This document shows, piece after piece, positions 8,203 to 15,272 of a stretch of DNA of 45,321 nt. The notes under the pieces were generated by a model. It was not told where the DNA came from. It ran no database searches and saw only the letters and a list, made by a program, of their open reading frames with translations. This DNA is from Candidatus Bathyarchaeota archaeon (GTDB lineage: Archaea > Thermoproteota > Bathyarchaeia > Bathyarchaeales > Bathycorpusculaceae). Location of the stretch: NCBI GenBank assembly GCA_013388895.1, contig JACAEK010000019.1, positions 1 to 45,321 of the forward strand. The letters run 5' to 3'. The number at the start of each line of letters is the position of its first letter. Positions within the stretch are counted from its first letter, which is position 1. The position numbers and the translations under genes are program-made.

Positions 8203-9066
8203 CTATTTCACTTCCAACTTTTGCCTATTTCCAATTAAATCTTCCCAAGGATTCTTTTCGCTCTTGGGTACTGTGAAAATATTTAGCTCATCAGGTTTTA
8301 ATCCTTTCTTAATCTTGTGCCACTCCAATGGTGTGGAGACTGTGGCTTTTGGGGTAGCTCTTAAGCTGTATGGACATATCATCGTTTTGCCGTGGGAGTT
8401 TTGTAGATAATCCAAGAAGATGATTCCTGGTTCCTTAGTTCCAGAAAACTCGGAAACAACCAAGGGTGTTTCACTTGCAATATGCTTTCCAATCTGATGA
8501 ACGAATTCTCTCGTTTGTCTGAAACTATACTCAGGGATTATGGGGAGAACCGCGTGTAATCCCTTTTTGCCTGATGTCTTAACGTAGGACGCGAGTCCCA
8601 GACTCTCTAGTTTCTCCTTCAACAAAAGGGCAACTTCAACCACATTGTCAAAGCTTGCTGGCGGTTCAGGGTCAATGTCGAAGAATACAAGGTCTGGTTT
8701 TTCAAAAGAATCGACTTGTCCTAGTGTCATGTGTACTTCTATTGATGCTAAATTGGCTATCCAAATGAGGGTGTCCAGATCATTGCAGACTACGTAGTTT
8801 ATTGTTCGATTGGCGGTTTCAGAAAACCTTTTCATAGTCTTAACCCATGGTGGAGTTCCCATCGGAGCATCTTTTTCGTAAAAGCCTTCCTTATCAATTC
8901 CATCTGGAAATCTTGTCAAAACCAGCAGTCTTTGAGCTAATAGGTCGAGCATTTTCGGCGCAATCTTGATGTAATATTCGATAATTTGGCCTTTTGTTAT
9001 TTTCAGCTGAGGATAGAGGATCTTGTCTAGATTTGAGAGTTCCACTTTCGTAAGGTCGCCAGCCAT
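8203..9066 (-). CDS. LigD-type primase-polymerase (NHEJ gap-filling polymerase)
   Basis: A 287-residue stand-alone LigD polymerase domain of the archaeo-eukaryotic primase superfamily. It fills gaps at breaks, usually preferring ribonucleotides. The metal-binding acids are in FFDIDPEP (D130, D132) and FLDYLQNSHGKT (D219), matching the spacing of bacterial LigD-Pol. The KTSGKKGLHAVLP motif gives the conserved histidine. N-terminal LTKVELSNLDKILYPQ is the usual opening. It is the first gene of the NHEJ operon, with a GGTGAA ribosome-binding site 8 bases before the ATG. Confidence 0.95.
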   Translation of the reverse strand: MAGDLTKVELSNLDKILYPQLKITKGQIIEYYIKIAPKMLDLLAQRLLVLTRFPDGIDKEGFYEKDAPMGTPPWVKTMKRFSETANRTINYVVCNDLDTLIWIANLASIEVHMTLGQVDSFEKPDLVFFDIDPEPPASFDNVVEVALLLKEKLESLGLASYVKTSGKKGLHAVLPIIPEYSFRQTREFVHQIGKHIASETPLVVSEFSGTKEPGIIFLDYLQNSHGKTMICPYSLRATPKATVSTPLEWHKIKKGLKPDELNIFTVPKSEKNPWEDLIGNRQKLEVK

Positions 9067-9923: not shown

Positions 9924-11144
9924 ATGTTAATGCAATTAGAAAGCACAAGCTCCAAAGAGTTCTCGAAAGAAGCTGTTAGGCACTTTCTCGTTTTCAAGCA
10001 GGGGTTTCTTCAGAAAAAAGGCAAAAATGGAGCATACGACGCACTAAGACAGCTTGAGTGCATCCAAATTGACCCAATAAGCGTCGTTCATCCCAATCAT
10101 CACTTAGTTCTTCATAACAGGGTCGTCGATTACAAGCCATCCCACTTGGAAGAGTTGCTCTACAAAGACAGGGTCGCCTTCGAGTATTGGTGTAATGAAA
10201 AATCTATAATTCCAATCGAAGATTTTCCGAAATTCCGCTACAGAATGAAAAATCCGTCACAGTTTCACTCGCCATTTTACGAACGCATAAAAGCCCAAAG
10301 CAAAGAACTGCACAAAGAAATCAAGTATGTCCTTTCGGAAATCAAAAAACATGGACCGTTGTCTTCGGGAGAATTTGAGCAAAAAAGAAAAATCGAAGGA
10401 AAATTGGCGACAAAAGTTCTGAATCTCTTGTGGGATTGCGGCGACTTGGTGATTCACCACGTAGAAGGAAATCGCCGATACTTTGATCTTACAGAGCGAG
10501 TGCTTCCGTCAAACATGAACGAAGAAGTGGCAAGTCGTGAAGAATATGAACAGTTTATAATCCATAAATACATGAAAGCCTACGGACTTGTGGACATACG
10601 AGATTGGCGCTTCAGTTGGCTACCGCTGAAAATCCCTCAAAGAAAAGCCATGATAAAAAGAATGATAGAAGCAGACAAACTATGCCCGATTAAAATAGAA
10701 GACATCAAACATACATACTATGTTCTAAAGGAGAATCTGTCCCTTCTTGAAAATTCTGACACAGCAATAAACGAAAGCATTCTCTTCATTGCACCATTGG
10801 ATAATCTTTTATGGAATCGAAAAATGATCTCTGATCTCTTCGACTTTGATTATGCTTGGGAAGTCTACAAAGTTCCTGAAAAAAGAATTTACGGTTACTA
10901 CGTTATGCCAATCTTATACGGCACAAATTTCATTGGAAGAATTGATCCAAAACTTGACAGACAAAACAGGAAAATGATAATCCATTCATTGCTTTTAGAA
11001 GAAAAATGTTTTGGCGAAAACCTTGTTGATGAACTTGTTGCTGCTTTGCAGAGATTCCTGAGTTTTCACGAAGCTTCTAAAATTGAAATAAATAAAACGA
11101 GCCCAAAGAAATTGAAGCGTGCATTAATGCGTGAACTAAGCTAA
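9924..11144 (+). CDS. YcaQ/AlkX-like winged-helix DNA glycosylase
   Basis: A 406-residue protein of the HTH_42 (YcaQ) family, which includes AlkZ and AlkX, glycosylases that unhook interstrand crosslinks and bulky alkyl adducts. The catalytic region is LRQLECIQIDPISVVHPNHHLVLHNRV. It shows the QxD motif (Q48, D50) of the AlkX/YcaQ type rather than QxQ of AlkZ. Multiple winged-helix modules follow, and the C-terminal part LLWNRKMISDLFDFDYAWEVY...GRIDPKLDR is the family beta-barrel. Length is normal. It sits close to the NHEJ genes but on the other strand, so any link is by neighbourhood only. Confidence 0.88.
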   Translation: MLMQLESTSSKEFSKEAVRHFLVFKQGFLQKKGKNGAYDALRQLECIQIDPISVVHPNHHLVLHNRVVDYKPSHLEELLYKDRVAFEYWCNEKSIIPIEDFPKFRYRMKNPSQFHSPFYERIKAQSKELHKEIKYVLSEIKKHGPLSSGEFEQKRKIEGKLATKVLNLLWDCGDLVIHHVEGNRRYFDLTERVLPSNMNEEVASREEYEQFIIHKYMKAYGLVDIRDWRFSWLPLKIPQRKAMIKRMIEADKLCPIKIEDIKHTYYVLKENLSLLENSDTAINESILFIAPLDNLLWNRKMISDLFDFDYAWEVYKVPEKRIYGYYVMPILYGTNFIGRIDPKLDRQNRKMIIHSLLLEEKCFGENLVDELVAALQRFLSFHEASKIEINKTSPKKLKRALMRELS

Positions 11145-11170: not shown

Positions 11171-11575
11171 TTAGAGCTCAATTCTGTGGCTTGGTTTGTT
11201 TCGATAATTTTGAACGCATTTTTGTTTTGGTAAGCAATCTCTTTCTGCTGCCCACTTAAGCAATGGCACTATTGCTTTTCTCAACTCTTTTCCATCTGCG
11301 GTTAATGAATACTCGACTCGTGGAGGAATCTCGTTGAAGGTTTCTTTCATTATTAGGTTCTCTTTTTGTAACGCCTTTAACGTGTCGGATAATGTTTTGG
11401 GACTCACGCCTTCAAGCTGTTCCATTAATCCATTAAACCTGAGTTTTTCGCAATTTCCCAGCACGTTTATTATTAGAAGTGTCCATTTCTTGCTGATTAC
11501 ATCTATTACTCCTTCAAGAGGACAGAGACATAGGTGAGTCCTTCCATCTTTTTGGCATTTGCTTTCTTTTGACAT
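11171..11575 (-). CDS. HxlR-family winged-helix transcriptional regulator
   Basis: A 134-residue HxlR (DUF24) regulator. Signature segments are CPLEGVIDVISKKWTLLIINVLG, LRFNGLMEQLEGVSPKTLSDTLKALQKENLI and RVEYSLTADGKELRKAIVPLLKW. HxlR proteins often sense electrophiles, thiol oxidants or metals through an N-terminal cysteine; here C18 in CPLEG, together with C8 and C16, could act that way. It is divergent from a small Cys/His-rich protein gene, and a long inverted repeat lies between them. Confidence 0.92.
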   Translation of the reverse strand: MSKESKCQKDGRTHLCLCPLEGVIDVISKKWTLLIINVLGNCEKLRFNGLMEQLEGVSPKTLSDTLKALQKENLIMKETFNEIPPRVEYSLTADGKELRKAIVPLLKWAAERDCLPKQKCVQNYRNKPSHRIEL

Positions 11576-11585
11576 AGTTGCTTTC

Positions 11586-11629
11586 TTACTATAAACTTTG
11601 TAGTTTAAATACTTTACTTTTTATAGTAA
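11586..11629. promoter_or_regulatory. inverted-repeat operator between hxlR and the Cys/His mini-protein
   Basis: TTACTATAAA (11586-11595) and TTTATAGTAA (11620-11629) are perfect 10-bp inverted arms separated by 24 bases. Inside lies a smaller repeat, AAACT and AGTTT (11593-11606), and a TTTAAATAC TATA-like element. HxlR regulators bind such palindromic sites near their own genes. The element covers the predicted promoters in both directions, so it most likely controls both. Confidence 0.6.
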
Positions 11630-11635
11630 CCACCT

Positions 11636-11860
11636 GTGATAACAATGTGTAAAGAATGTGATTGTGAAGAAAATTATCACGAAGACGATTGCAGTTGCGG
11701 TTGTAGAGAATGGCATCACGGACATAAGCGCTTTGGGGTTCGGCGATTTCTAACTAAAGACGAAAAGATTAAGAAATTGGAAAACTATGCAGAAGACCTC
11801 AGAAAAGAACTTACGGCAGTACAAGAACGAGTCAAAGAACTGAAAAGCAAACAAAAATAG
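11636..11860 (+). CDS. small Cys/His-rich protein with C-terminal coiled coil
   Basis: A 74-residue protein I cannot name. The first 30 residues contain six cysteines and five histidines (MCKECDCEENYHEDDCSCGCREWHHGHK), which suggests metal binding. Residues 40-74 are a charged heptad-like helix (EKIKKLENYAEDLRKELTAVQERVKELKSK), probably a coiled coil that oligomerises. The start could be GTG 11636, about 28 bases after a TATA-like box (leaderless), or ATG 11645. Divergence from hxlR across an inverted repeat suggests it is an HxlR target. Confidence 0.75.
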   Translation: MITMCKECDCEENYHEDDCSCGCREWHHGHKRFGVRRFLTKDEKIKKLENYAEDLRKELTAVQERVKELKSKQK

Positions 11861-11927: not shown

Positions 11928-12332
11928 TTATGAGGATTTTTCGATTTTTCCTATTAACTGCTGTACTTTACTTTTTATTGCGTTTCTGACTTTTCTTGCT
12001 TCATCTAAAGAAATCTTTGCTGGGTCTGGCATGTCCCAACTTTCCACATGTTTCGCGTAGACTACAGGGCATTCAGCGCTTCCGCAGACTGTTATACCTA
12101 CGTCAGCCTTTATCTGCAACTCCACCGTTAAAGCCTGAGGTTTCTTTTCGCTAATGTCAATTCCTTCTTCTTTCATTAGCAATATGGCGTTTGGGTGCAC
12201 TTCTGCTGCAGGCTTGATTCCGGCGCTAAGGGCTGTCCAGCCTTCTGGAGCGAACTTGTTGAAGTAGGCTTCCGCCACTTGACTTCTGAAACTGTTTTCA
12301 ACACAGGCGAATAGCACAGTTTTCAAAAACAT
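11928..12332 (-). CDS. arsC: low-molecular-weight phosphatase-fold arsenate reductase-like protein
   Basis: A 134-residue LMW-PTPase-fold protein. The P-loop is CVENSFRSQ (C10-x5-R16), close to CTGNSCRSQ of thioredoxin-coupled ArsC. The general acid region is SWDMPDPAK. A second cysteine pair lies in TVCGSAECPVVY, as expected for the redox cascade of ArsC (C82/C89 in Staphylococcus), though the spacing is shorter. It may reduce arsenate; a protein-tyrosine phosphatase role cannot be excluded. No arsenite pump or ArsR is in the window. It lies downstream of the copper genes on the same strand, with a 122-base gap. Confidence 0.82.
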   Translation of the reverse strand: MFLKTVLFACVENSFRSQVAEAYFNKFAPEGWTALSAGIKPAAEVHPNAILLMKEEGIDISEKKPQALTVELQIKADVGITVCGSAECPVVYAKHVESWDMPDPAKISLDEARKVRNAIKSKVQQLIGKIEKSS

Positions 12333-12454
12333 TCCTTCTACTCAGCTTATGACACCTATTTGTCTGAGGCAGTCTTAAGTTTTTCCGAAACCACACACAG
12401 CATTGCATTTGGGTTCTTGTCCATGTTCGGCAAGACTAAGTTATCTCTTTGATT

Positions 12455-12646
12455 CTAGCAGCAGCAATGCCCTGAATGCATAGAGTGACCTGAATGCCCG
12501 CCTGCATATTTTGTTGGGTTCTTGTCAAACGTTGTCTTGCACATTTGGTTGCAGAAGTAGTAGGTCTTGCCCATGTATTCTGATTTGAACTTGGCAGTTT
12601 TCTCGTCTACACTCATGCTGCAAACTGGATCTTTAGCCATGTTCAC
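12455..12646 (-). CDS. YHS-domain mini-protein with His/Cys-rich tail
   Basis: A 63-residue protein made of one YHS domain (AKDPVCSMSVDEKTAKF...GKTYYFCNQMCKTTFDKNPTKY) followed by GGHSGHSMHSGHCCC. YHS domains bind copper or other soft metals through cysteines. The Met/His/Cys-rich tail adds more ligands, so this looks like a small copper chaperone or buffer. It lies 22 bases downstream of the copper ATPase, whose N-terminus carries a related YHS domain. The two are probably co-transcribed. Confidence 0.88.
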   Translation of the reverse strand: MNMAKDPVCSMSVDEKTAKFKSEYMGKTYYFCNQMCKTTFDKNPTKYAGGHSGHSMHSGHCCC

Positions 12647-12668
12647 ATTTCACCTCCCATTTTTTTGC

Positions 12669-14744
12669 TTATAATTTAAGTAGTTTAAGAGTTGCCGAGT
12701 TGCTGACAACGAATAAGGAACTGAATGCCATAGCTCCAGCCGCTATTATCGGGCTCAGCAACCCAAGGGCGGCTACAGGAATCGAAACCAAGTTATATAT
12801 AAACGCCCAGAAAAGATTCTGCTTAATCTTTCGCATGGTCGCTCTGCTAAGCATTATTCCTCTCGCAACATCACACAAATCATCTTTAATGAGGACGATG
12901 CCACCAGCTTCTTTAGCAATGTCGGTTCCGCTTCCTATGGCTACACCGATATGCGCCTGAGCGAGGGCGGGAGCGTCATTTACACCATCACCTACCATGG
13001 CAACAACTTTGCCTTCACTCTGCAACCGTTTAATAACATCTACTTTCTGCCATGGCAAAACATTAGCGATAACGGTGTCAATGCCTAATTGCCCAGCTAT
13101 TGCTTTAGCAGTTCGCTCGTTGTCTCCAGTCAGCATGGCAACTTCTAATCCCATGTTTTTGAGCTGTTCTAAGGCTTCAGCTGCGTTGTTTTTGGGAGTG
13201 TCCATAGCTGCTACGATTCCGGCAGTTTCTCCGTCTACTGCAAGAAGCATCGAAGTTTTGCCTTGCTTCTCCAGCGTAGTAAGCTTTCCTTCTATGTTTT
13301 CAATGTTAACATTGTTAGCTTGAATGAGTTTTCGATTTCCAAATAGTATCTGATGTTTCTTGATGGAAGCTTTAACGCCATGTCCGGGAACAGCTTCAAA
13401 CGAATCAGCGTCAGCTACTTTCAGATGCGCTTCATTTGCTGCTTTGATGACGGCTTCTGCTAGTGGATGTTCTGAACCTTTTTCGGCAACAGCAGCAAAG
13501 CCTAAGATGTCGCTTTCGTTATAGCCCTCAAAAGCGATTACGTCTGTGACCGACGGCTCCCCTTTTGTCAAAGTTCCCGTCTTATCAAATACTACTGTGG
13601 TTAATTTTCCTGCGTTTTCAACGTATTCGCCTCCTCTTAGCAAAACGCCATATTCAGCGCCTTTGCCAACTCCTGCAAGAATCGCTGTTGGCGTGGCTAT
13701 GCCTAAAGCACATGGGCAAGCGATTAGGAGTATGGCTAGCAGCACAAGAAAGGCGAATGAGAAACCTGCTGTAACTAGCCAGAAAGTAAACGCTATTCCA
13801 GCAACTGTGAAGACGGCTGGAACAAAATATCCGACAACGCGGTCTGCAAATCTTTGAGCCGGAGCGTTGGAGGCCTGCGCTTCTTCCACTAGATGCACAA
13901 TCTGCATCAGAGCCGTGTCTTCACCAATTTTGGTCGCTTTGATTTTTAATAAGCCTGTTTTGTTTATTGTGGCACCTATAACTTCGCTACCTACGTTTTT
14001 TTCTACCGGTATGCTTTCACCGGTAATGATTTTCTCGTCAACAGAAGAGTAACCAGCCGTAACCACACCATCTGTAGGGATTTTTTCGCCCGGTTTAATG
14101 ATAAGTAAATCGCCTAGTAGTACATCGTCGATTGAAACTTCCACTTCCTGTTCATCTTTTAGCACTCTTGCAATAGTGGGCTGAAGCTCAAGCAGTTTTC
14201 GAATGGCTGCGGCTGATTTGCGCCTTATGGTTTCTTCAATAAACTTGCCTAATAACACGAAAGCCAGAATTGCAATGGCAACTTCCATGTAGCCGAATCC
14301 TTCTGATCCGAGTGATGGAAAGAATGTGCTGACGGCACCATACCCCCAACCAGCTAAAACGCCTGTTGTTATCAGTACATCCATGTTTATGGCATGAATT
14401 TTGAGCGCGTTATACGCTCCATGATGAATGCTCCATCCAGCTATCCAAACGATTGGCGTTGAAAGTATGAAGAAGGCCAAGTCCCATGCAGAAATGCCGA
14501 CTATTCTGAATGTCATGATAGCCACTGCCAAACCTAGTATAGCAATCACGCGCAAGGCAGCTACGCTTATTACCCCTGCAAGCGCCAAAGCGACTCGCCG
14601 TTTCATGGCTTTTAATTCTTGTTCTGGTTGTTCGTATGTTCGGGCGCAAGTTTCGCTGCAGAAATAGTGTGTTCTGTCGCCAATCTTACGTTTAATAGAA
14701 CCTTCTTTGTCTACTGTCATTCCGCATACTGGATCTCTTGGCAT
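12669..14744 (-). CDS. copA: copper-exporting P1B-type ATPase with N-terminal YHS domain
   Basis: A 691-residue P-type ATPase. Residues 1-40 form a YHS metal-binding domain ([12 protein letters not shown]...HYFCSETC) instead of the usual HMA domain. Then come the membrane segments, the actuator [10 protein letters not shown], the membrane metal site CPC (C343-C345), phosphorylation motif DKTGTLTKG (D387), the HP motif GSEHPLAEA, the ATP-binding [10 protein letters not shown] hinge, and final helices with YN and [15 protein letters not shown] with these YN and M-x2-SS features is the Cu(I) P1B-1 signature. It exports Cu(I) from the cytoplasm. It is divergent from a PadR-TRASH regulator. Confidence 0.95.
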
Positions 14745-14763
14745 TTGTCTGTACGCTCCAATT

Positions 14764-14822
14764 TAAATTCGCGTTTGGAAATATTTAAATATATCTATGA
14801 AAGATATATCTTTTGATGATAT
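14764..14822. promoter_or_regulatory. divergent copA / padR-TRASH promoter with AT-rich operator repeats
   Basis: The gap between the divergent starts holds several related elements: ATTTAAAT near 14761-14767, TATTTAAATATATCT at 14782-14796, the perfect palindrome GATATATC at 14803-14810, and GATGATATATG running into the regulator start. Repeated ATATC/GATAT half-sites are a plausible PadR operator overlapping the TATA boxes of both genes, which would let copper release the repressor. Exact binding sites are inferred. Confidence 0.5.
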
Positions 14823-15272
14823 ATGTCTACTTCTGACATCGACGAAATAGTTTCAGACTTTTCACGTTTCTACATACTTACAATATTATATGAAGCACCA
14901 AGCCACGGCTACAGCATCCTCAACAAATTCAAAAAGCGCGTGGGGAAAGAAGTAAGTCCAAGCCTCATCTACCCGTTTCTTAAGCAACTTGAACAGAAAG
15001 GACTGGTGAAGCATTCACTCAAACCCGTTGGCGCCAAGAAGAAGAAAGTCTTTGGGCTGACAAAGGAAGGCAAGGAACTATGCAAGCAGTTGTTCAAACG
15101 CTTTTCAGCTTTGGTTTCTGTTGCCATCGAGCCAAGTATGTCTATTTGCGCTAGTTGTGGCTGCAAAATTTATGAAGGCGGATACAATGAAGTAATTAAC
15201 AATAAAGAAATGACTTTCTGTTGTGTGCATTGCGCGGAATCGTACAAGCAAGAAACACAAAAGAAACATTAA
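14823..15272 (+). CDS. PadR-family regulator with C-terminal TRASH metal-sensing domain
   Basis: A 149-residue protein with two parts. Residues 10-100 are a PadR winged helix (FYILTILYEAPSHGYSILNKF...SPSLIYPFLKQLEQKGLV...KVFGLTKEGKELCKQ). Residues 108-145 are a TRASH-like zinc-finger (SICASCGCKIYEGGY ... MTFCCVHCAESY) with C-x2-C and C-x3-C pairs about 22 residues apart. TRASH domains sense copper and similar metals in archaeal regulators. Divergence from a YHS-copper ATPase makes it the likely copper-responsive repressor of that gene. The same metal-binding theme occurs in regulator, pump and chaperone. Confidence 0.88.
   Translation: MSTSDIDEIVSDFSRFYILTILYEAPSHGYSILNKFKKRVGKEVSPSLIYPFLKQLEQKGLVKHSLKPVGAKKKKVFGLTKEGKELCKQLFKRFSALVSVAIEPSMSICASCGCKIYEGGYNEVINNKEMTFCCVHCAESYKQETQKKH

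Follow-up and report, generated by a model that had tools for sequence, protein, structure and literature searches.

A conserved divergent pair of an HxlR-type regulator gene and a small Cys/His-rich protein gene in Bathyarchaeia, with a probable three-dyad operator

HxlR-type (MarR/DUF24) transcriptional regulators are well characterized in some bacteria, among them Bacillus subtilis and Staphylococcus aureus. In PMC6798810, the disulfide of YodB is described as joining Cys6 with Cys101 or Cys108, and in PMC7835342, Cys11 of B. subtilis HxlR is described as the conserved residue that reacts with electrophiles or oxidants. Archaeal papers such as PMC5847659 and PMC6563490 mention HxlR in passing, and among the titles and abstract openings returned by our open-access searches there was no archaeal HxlR with a described operator, target, or partner. 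Here, we analyzed a 45,321-nucleotide stretch of DNA (the window) from a Candidatus Bathyarchaeota archaeon (GenBank assembly GCA_013388895.1, contig JACAEK010000019.1). In this window, a gene for an HxlR (MarR/DUF24) winged-helix regulator of 134 amino acids (hxlR; positions 11171 to 11575, reverse strand) and a gene for a small protein with a Cys/His-rich part followed by one helix (the mini-gene; 11645 to 11860, forward strand, ATG start, 71 amino acids) are divergently oriented within 11171 to 11860. A preliminary description of the locus, made from the sequence, had placed an HxlR operator between the two genes and had failed to match the pair to a described system. Our open-access literature searches likewise gave no description of the companion or of the operator; the HxlR family is known, while the companion mini-protein and the operator are apparently undescribed.

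The mini-protein was searched for beside hxlR in other archaea, as proposed in the preliminary description, and the divergent pair was found to recur within and beyond the order (Bathyarchaeales). That description would have been contradicted by a lack of conservation of the pair or of the repeat in relatives; both the pair and the operator region are conserved. A first scan of the genome contigs with the mini-protein confirmed no relative. A mini-protein search of 60 relatives and the genome itself yielded 19 places, which by eye comprised eight with an HxlR gene opposite, five with a PadR gene beside, five with neither, and one cut by a contig end (L009), at which the operator is retained. 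The group with neither includes a doubtful place inside a long frame (L018) and one with an ArsR-like gene opposite (L016). In 162 genomes of the order, the HxlR profile (A2) matched 26 genomes at E ≤1e-25 and the mini-protein profile (A3) matched 38 genomes at E ≤0.01, the weakest of the latter being partial coiled-coil matches. By coordinates, all 13 HxlR matches at E ≤4.7e-64 were divergent from a mini-protein match, a count that is partly circular because 8 of the 13 are A2 rows, which had been selected for an adjoining mini-gene; the new ones are G064, G065, G066 (nearly equal to an A2 row), G067, and G082. The 19-place search gives the less biased count, and the operator conservation and 25-mer counts described below do not depend on the count of 13. 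An HxlR match at 3.2e-55 (G097:C161) was likewise paired with a mini-protein match, and the two genes of G018 are each located at a contig end, on separate contigs. By coordinates, no mini-protein match was located beside the remaining weaker A2 matches. A search of 398 genomes of the phylum detected two additional pairs (G197 and G353), both outside the order.

The neighborhoods of 35 of the 37 mini-protein matches in the order at E ≤1e-4 were examined (G078:C120 and G067:C9 were left out); with a profile built mostly from HxlR-linked rows (9 of 13), 15 were beside HxlR, 10 beside PadR, and 10 beside neither. All 15 HxlR-linked mini-genes were divergent, one of them (L043) from a decayed hxlR, and the 10 PadR-linked ones were arranged divergently in eight cases and in tandem in two. 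Genome G030 has a mini-gene at each of L165, L033, and L034; two of the three adjoin HxlR and the other adjoins PadR, and a ChrB_C protein is encoded next to this PadR-linked mini-gene. Scanning with A2 identified 80 named loci, the two best of which were from Candidatus Bathyarchaeota, and a mini-protein profile match lay beside HxlR in six of the 80 (L044, L045, L051, L064, L065, and L067), including loci of Archaeoglobus JdFR-37 and Methanohalophilus. In nine more named loci (L046 to L049, L056, L061, L062, L063, and L079), a small Cys-bearing open reading frame opposite hxlR was recognized by eye, not by the profile; those of L061 and L063 have two Cys. In a tree of 71 HxlR proteins, with many weak forks, unsettled bootstrap values, and mini-bearing labels that we assigned ourselves, the 28 mini-labeled rows clustered, requiring 9 changes against 22.3 in shuffled labels (none of 500 as low). 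Comparison of these genomes shows that the HxlR gene and the mini-gene are a conserved, divergently transcribed pair.

The hxlR product matched the Pfam family HxlR (PF01638) over residues 26 to 111 with 78 bits (cut-off, 20.8; E = 5e-22), and its matches among the PDB chains included YybR, HxlR, YodB, and QsrR. It contains cysteines at positions 7, 16, 18, and 120. Cys18, which corresponds to the conserved N-terminal cysteine ahead of helix 1 in this family, aligns with C14 of YybR, which we take to be HypR, and is invariant in 8 of 8 rows of alignment A2 and 14 of 14 rows of alignment A6. Cys16 was found in seven rows of the former and in all rows of the latter, and Cys120 is invariant in A2 and occurs in 7 of the 14 rows of A6. 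Formaldehyde sensing as in B. subtilis HxlR was considered and rejected. The protein reads C18-P19-L20, so that Leu20 stands at the place of the required Lys of the Cys-Lys pair; with no Lys two residues past the Cys, a methylene bridge cannot be made as it is in B. subtilis HxlR.

The preliminary description had assigned 74 residues to the mini-protein. The 74-codon frame does exist (11636 to 11860, from GTG 11636), but the start at ATG 11645, giving 71 amino acids, is likelier because most of the aligned relatives begin at an ATG matching 11645. The dense Cys/His cluster that it had noted was borne out, and a helix of coiled-coil type is predicted. All six Cys and all four His of the mini-protein precede residue 35, and when stretches were scanned at a threshold of at least 10 Cys plus His, 14 overlapping stretches of 28373 passed, in three places, one of which is the mini-gene. 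AlphaFold2 predicted one helix at residues 38 to 70, with a predicted local distance difference test (pLDDT) score of at least 90 for 32 residues and below 50 for residues 1 to 6 and 8 to 32; four heptads can be read from the sequence of the helix (I42, L45, A49, L52, L56, V59, V63, and L66). In the Pfam and NCBIfam search, the mini-protein passed no family cut-off, and solved structures included no convincing relative, the best being prefoldin at E 0.01. Membership of DUF5320 (PF17253) was considered and set aside, since the mini-protein scored 11.5 bits against a gathering cut-off of 27; matches to DUF5320 at E ≤0.01 were obtained for 7 of the 28 members of alignment A4 (best, 6e-5). It was likewise not assigned to the C(P)XCG zinc fingers, since it has one CxCG only (residues 16 to 19). 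Its Cys/His content is the feature that bears on possible metal binding.

The inverted repeat that had been taken as the operator is perfectly complementary over 10 bp, with arms at 11586 to 11595 and 11620 to 11629 and a 24-base spacer, exactly as described. By itself, this repeat is weak evidence, because six perfect 10-bp repeats with spacers of up to 40 bases occur in the window, against a mean of 2.2 in 60 shuffles, one of which reached six; chance would be possible for the repeat alone. Of 5000 shuffled versions of the 69-bp intergenic stretch, 23 contained such a repeat. We regard the site as functional because its core is conserved in relatives, not because of the repeat. The core is a 32-bp pattern, GTATTTAAACTATCAAGTTTATAGTAAGATAG, which is the sequence at L029 and L031; it lies at 11581 to 11612 on the reverse strand with three mismatches in the window. 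Forty-three places were examined for it. At 13 loci of the order with a mini-gene, the window included, it occurred with 0 to 6 mismatches. At 20 other archaeal hxlR loci, taken from 30 further places, it had 2 to 10 mismatches, in each case fewer than its own reversed control; the reversed controls at the 33 loci used had 8 to 14. Those left out were L051 (the same record as L028), L044, L055, and L066 (9, 7, and 9 mismatches, respectively), and L068 to L071, L073, and L074 (10 to 13 mismatches, little or no better than the control). Matches with seven or more mismatches count mainly because they are located just before hxlR. On this basis, the core is also present upstream of HxlR genes of other Bathyarchaeia, of Archaeoglobus, and of methanogens and, in a weaker form, of Thaumarchaeota and Asgard archaea.

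The presence of a conserved regulatory region between the genes thus stands, but the operator is likely to consist of three tandem dyads rather than the 10-bp repeat with its 24-base spacer. On the reverse strand, dyad 1 (11611 to 11627, ACTAT-N7-AAAGT) lies between a TATA-like box and the mini-gene, dyad 2 (11588 to 11604) reads ACTAC-N7-ATAGT in the window and ACTAT-N7-ATAGT in most loci of the order, and dyad 3 (11561 to 11578, ACTAT-N8-AAAGC) overlaps the hxlR start codon. The spacing is 23 bp from dyad 1 to dyad 2 and 26 bp from dyad 2 to dyad 3. The ACTAT halves fall at offsets −15, 8, and 34 and the ATAGT-like halves at −3, 20, and 47. When a half-site was defined as four of five bases or better, the two halves of dyad 1 (−15 and −3) were each present at 11 of the 13 loci of the order and at 13 and 17, respectively, of the 20 other loci. 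Both halves of dyad 2 (8 and 20) were present at all 13 loci; in the other set, its right half was present at 15 of 20 and its left half at fewer than 10. For dyad 3 (34 and 47), the corresponding counts were 13 and 8 of 13 and 14 and 13 of 20. The conserved operator is most likely a row of three tandem dyads that supplies the repeat arms from its halves: read on the hxlR strand, the left arm (11620 to 11629) contains the left half of dyad 1 and the right arm (11586 to 11595) the right half of dyad 2. The TATA-like box, GTTTAAATAC (11603 to 11612, forward strand), is conserved among the aligned loci, and its assignment follows general archaeal promoter rules. It possibly serves both promoters, because its TTTAAA is self-complementary.

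A 25-mer of the core was searched for at up to three mismatches in the 162 genomes of the order and was found at 20 places in 13 genomes, whereas its reversed control was found at none. The 20 places comprised 14 hxlR-mini loci (G018 being counted with its mini-gene only, its hxlR lying on another contig), three upstream of an hxlR paralogue (G047, G056, and G066), one at a mini-gene with a decayed hxlR, and two at SBP_bac_11 genes. Opposite the paralogues of G047 and G056 is a gene for a membrane protein that, judged by eye, is CopD-like. In its own genome, the site of the window is unique at up to three mismatches. Comparison across the order thus shows that the strict operator sequence is confined to this module. 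The two SBP_bac_11 places each represent a second copy of the core, which stands just upstream of the SBP_bac_11 gene in two families of the order (L030, 1819 to 1843, and L026, 8834 to 8858; G012 and G067 clusters), and this solute-binding-protein gene is a probable member of the regulon. At L043 (4200 to 4780), hxlR is fragmented over several frames, and the operator, with two mismatches, precedes a mini-ABC-ABC operon.

The genes around these loci were compared. Genes of ATP-binding cassette (ABC) type 2 follow the mini-gene at L024, L026, and L030 (by Pfam; DrrA/DrrB-like) and at L124, L125, and L043 (by eye), and an ABC gene follows it at the PadR locus L130 (by eye), so that comparison indicates linkage to an exporter at some loci; no exporter follows it at L029, L031, L032, and L033. 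A cupin lies near the mini-gene at L024 (Pfam) and L124 (by eye). A catalase and a Fur-type regulator (L034), and a rubrerythrin and a hemerythrin/DUF438 protein (L033), are found near other pairs. In the window, positions 11928 to 15272 form a compact copper/arsenic-type cluster. It encodes an LMWPc protein of the arsenate-reductase (ArsC) type, below the NCBIfam cut-offs, a YHS protein ending in a GGHSGHSMHSGHCCC tail, a copper-type P1B ATPase whose start gives a weak YHS/TRASH match, and, on the other strand, a PadR protein whose end weakly matches TRASH. Among hxlR genes that have the core, CopD-family neighbors occur at L053, L063, and L072 (above the cut-off) and at L062 and L067 (below it), together with a cupin at L050, a CbiA/ParA-type ATPase at L057, and a weak DUF6789 match at L058. 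Among hxlR genes without a convincing core, an HMA protein and copper-type ATPases adjoin at L070 and L071, Rdx and an SBF transporter at L075, Rdx and an LMWPc protein at L076, a thioredoxin-domain protein at L068, and an aldo/keto reductase at L080. The hxlR of L066 (core with nine mismatches) has a methyltransferase neighbor, and the neighbors at L059 and L074 gave no family match. Taken together, these contexts lean towards soft metals and thiol/oxidative stress.

Several further arrangements were noted. PadR and mini-genes stand in tandem at L138 (3296 to 3866), L130, and L131; the PadR proteins of L138 and L130 begin with a Cys/His-bearing tail resembling that of the mini-protein, and an SBF-family transporter (Pfam; ACR3-like by eye) lies near the pair in L138. 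At L139 (3097 to 3799), a DUF134 gene adjoins that of a DUF5320 protein whose helix matches the mini-protein profile, a possible distant third regulator context for a mini-like protein. Elsewhere in the window, a protein with a LigD primase-polymerase domain is encoded at 8203 to 9066, with an AlkZ-like glycosylase gene nearby (9924 to 11144), and neither RNA families nor tRNAs were detected in the window at the thresholds used.

From these data, we infer an autoregulated thiol-type HxlR switch that locally controls a small Cys/His protein linked to a soft ligand or to an exporter, an account that we consider somewhat probable while leaving ample room for doubt. In this model, an HxlR dimer would occupy as many as three tandem dyads, which lie between the divergent genes and reach into them, and would repress the promoters of both hxlR and the mini-gene; dyad 1 is placed between the TATA-like box and the mini-gene, and dyads 2 and 3 cover the promoter and the start codon of hxlR. 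The signal would be thiol-reactive (a soft metal or metalloid, an oxidant, or an electrophile) and would act on the invariant Cys18, for which Cys16 and Cys120 are likely partners, and would alter DNA binding by HxlR so that the mini-gene is released. The mini-protein, with its coiled-coil-type helix and flexible Cys/His tail, may then bind or buffer the same kind of soft ligand or, alternatively, pass it to the ABC-2 exporter that several relatives encode immediately after it within one operon. The preliminary description had suggested metal or electrophile stress. Such a trigger, with soft metals in the first case, is plausible and fits the invariant HxlR cysteine and the neighbors (the arsenate-reductase-like protein, the copper-type ATPase, CopD-family proteins, and, at other loci, a catalase and a Fur-type regulator).

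Several observations weigh against this account. In the sister species G001, neither gene was matched at the cut-offs used (A2 and A3), and 10 of the 35 mini-genes are close to neither an HxlR nor a PadR gene. The Cys/His part varies strongly in length and spacing, with positions that are not conserved, and the mini-proteins of L128 and L043 have one Cys and that of L132 none; this variability, together with the lack of a confident structure, speaks against a single fixed metal site. The HxlR proteins of L033 (L019 in A2), L028, L154, and L155 lack Cys16, and Cys120 is absent from all seven A6 rows outside Bathyarchaeota and Methanomicrobiales. Extra half-sites occur at offsets −1 and 28 in both sets and at 53 and −21 in the other set, so the three-dyad arrangement is not the sole possible one, and the core of the G082 pair is degenerate (6 mismatches of 32) and was missed by the 25-mer search. 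The core also precedes hxlR genes that have no mini-gene, and hence autoregulation alone may conserve it. Furthermore, the mini-gene of the window is followed by a convergent arsC-like gene and no exporter, and the soft-metal/redox neighbors at L068, L070, L071, and L074 to L078 belong to HxlR genes without a convincing core.

In the chief rival account, the mini-protein acts as a co-sensor or anti-repressor, the helix of which docks on the adjoining HxlR or PadR protein while the tail reports the metal or redox state in a feedback loop. This fits the 25 of 35 mini-genes in the order that lie beside a winged-helix regulator of one of two families, the better conservation of the helix than of the Cys/His tail among the homologues, and the distant relative passing the DUF5320 cut-off that adjoins DUF134, a third kind of helix-turn-helix (HTH) protein. 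However, the remaining 10 mini-genes have no such neighbor, the profile behind the count was weighted to HxlR-linked rows, and a target adjoining its regulator would look identical; we regard this explanation as unlikely. In a broader form, which we consider improbable, the mini-protein would belong to a family of plug-in partners, with the tail as the sensor of soft metals or of the redox state and the helix as the part that signals to unrelated winged-helix regulators (HxlR, PadR, and possibly ArsR-like and DUF134 proteins); if true, this would be a two-part sensor of a kind not described so far. Similarly improbable is a drug or xenobiotic efflux switch, in which the signal for HxlR or PadR is a small organic compound, the mini-protein is an ABC-2 accessory, and the link to metals is incidental. 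The DrrA/DrrB-like and other ABC genes after the mini-gene speak for it, whereas the loci that have no exporter there, the window among them, speak against it, and it leaves the Cys/His tail without an obvious role. Chance, with a fortuitous repeat in AT-rich intergenic DNA and a fortuitous neighborhood of the two genes, is very improbable: such repeats are not rare in the window, but both the core and the pair are found again in different genera and outside the order, and within the 162 genomes the 25-mer keeps to this module.

For the autoregulated HxlR switch, the control region is recognizable in distant archaea, which suggests that the regulatory unit is old. One operator can be traced beyond Bathyarchaeia into Archaeoglobus and methanogens, with a fainter trail in Thaumarchaeota and Asgard archaea; binding, inducer, and target can accordingly be tested in methanogens, for which Methanolobus, Methanohalophilus, and Methanospirillum are candidates among the named loci. 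The mini-protein, for its part, is a marker of regulator loci in at least two families and might be of use for assigning stress regulons in archaea that are uncultured.

Compared with the known systems, the regulator belongs to the same Pfam family as the redox- and quinone-sensing MarR/DUF24 repressors YodB, CatR, QsrR, and HypR. It shares the conserved N-terminal Cys of HypR (C18) and has a further C-terminal Cys (C120, present in half of the A6 rows) that may correspond to that of YodB. Unlike these repressors, it is archaeal, has a CxC pair (C16 and C18) in most rows, and is accompanied by an unannotated Cys/His mini-protein encoded opposite and by a probable three-dyad operator. The formaldehyde-sensing activator HxlR of B. 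subtilis is of the same family and has the conserved cysteine, but its Cys11-Lys13 pair is replaced here by Cys18 with Leu20 two residues after it. On the side of the mini-protein, the C-terminal helix resembles DUF5320, which our open-access searches found mentioned once in each of two papers and a member of which is encoded beside an HTH gene (DUF134) in L139, whereas the N-terminal part is different. The C(P)XCG zinc-finger micro-proteins of Haloferax volcanii are likewise small archaeal Cys-bearing proteins; the mini-protein differs from them in having one CxCG (C16 to G19) joined to a coiled-coil-type helix.
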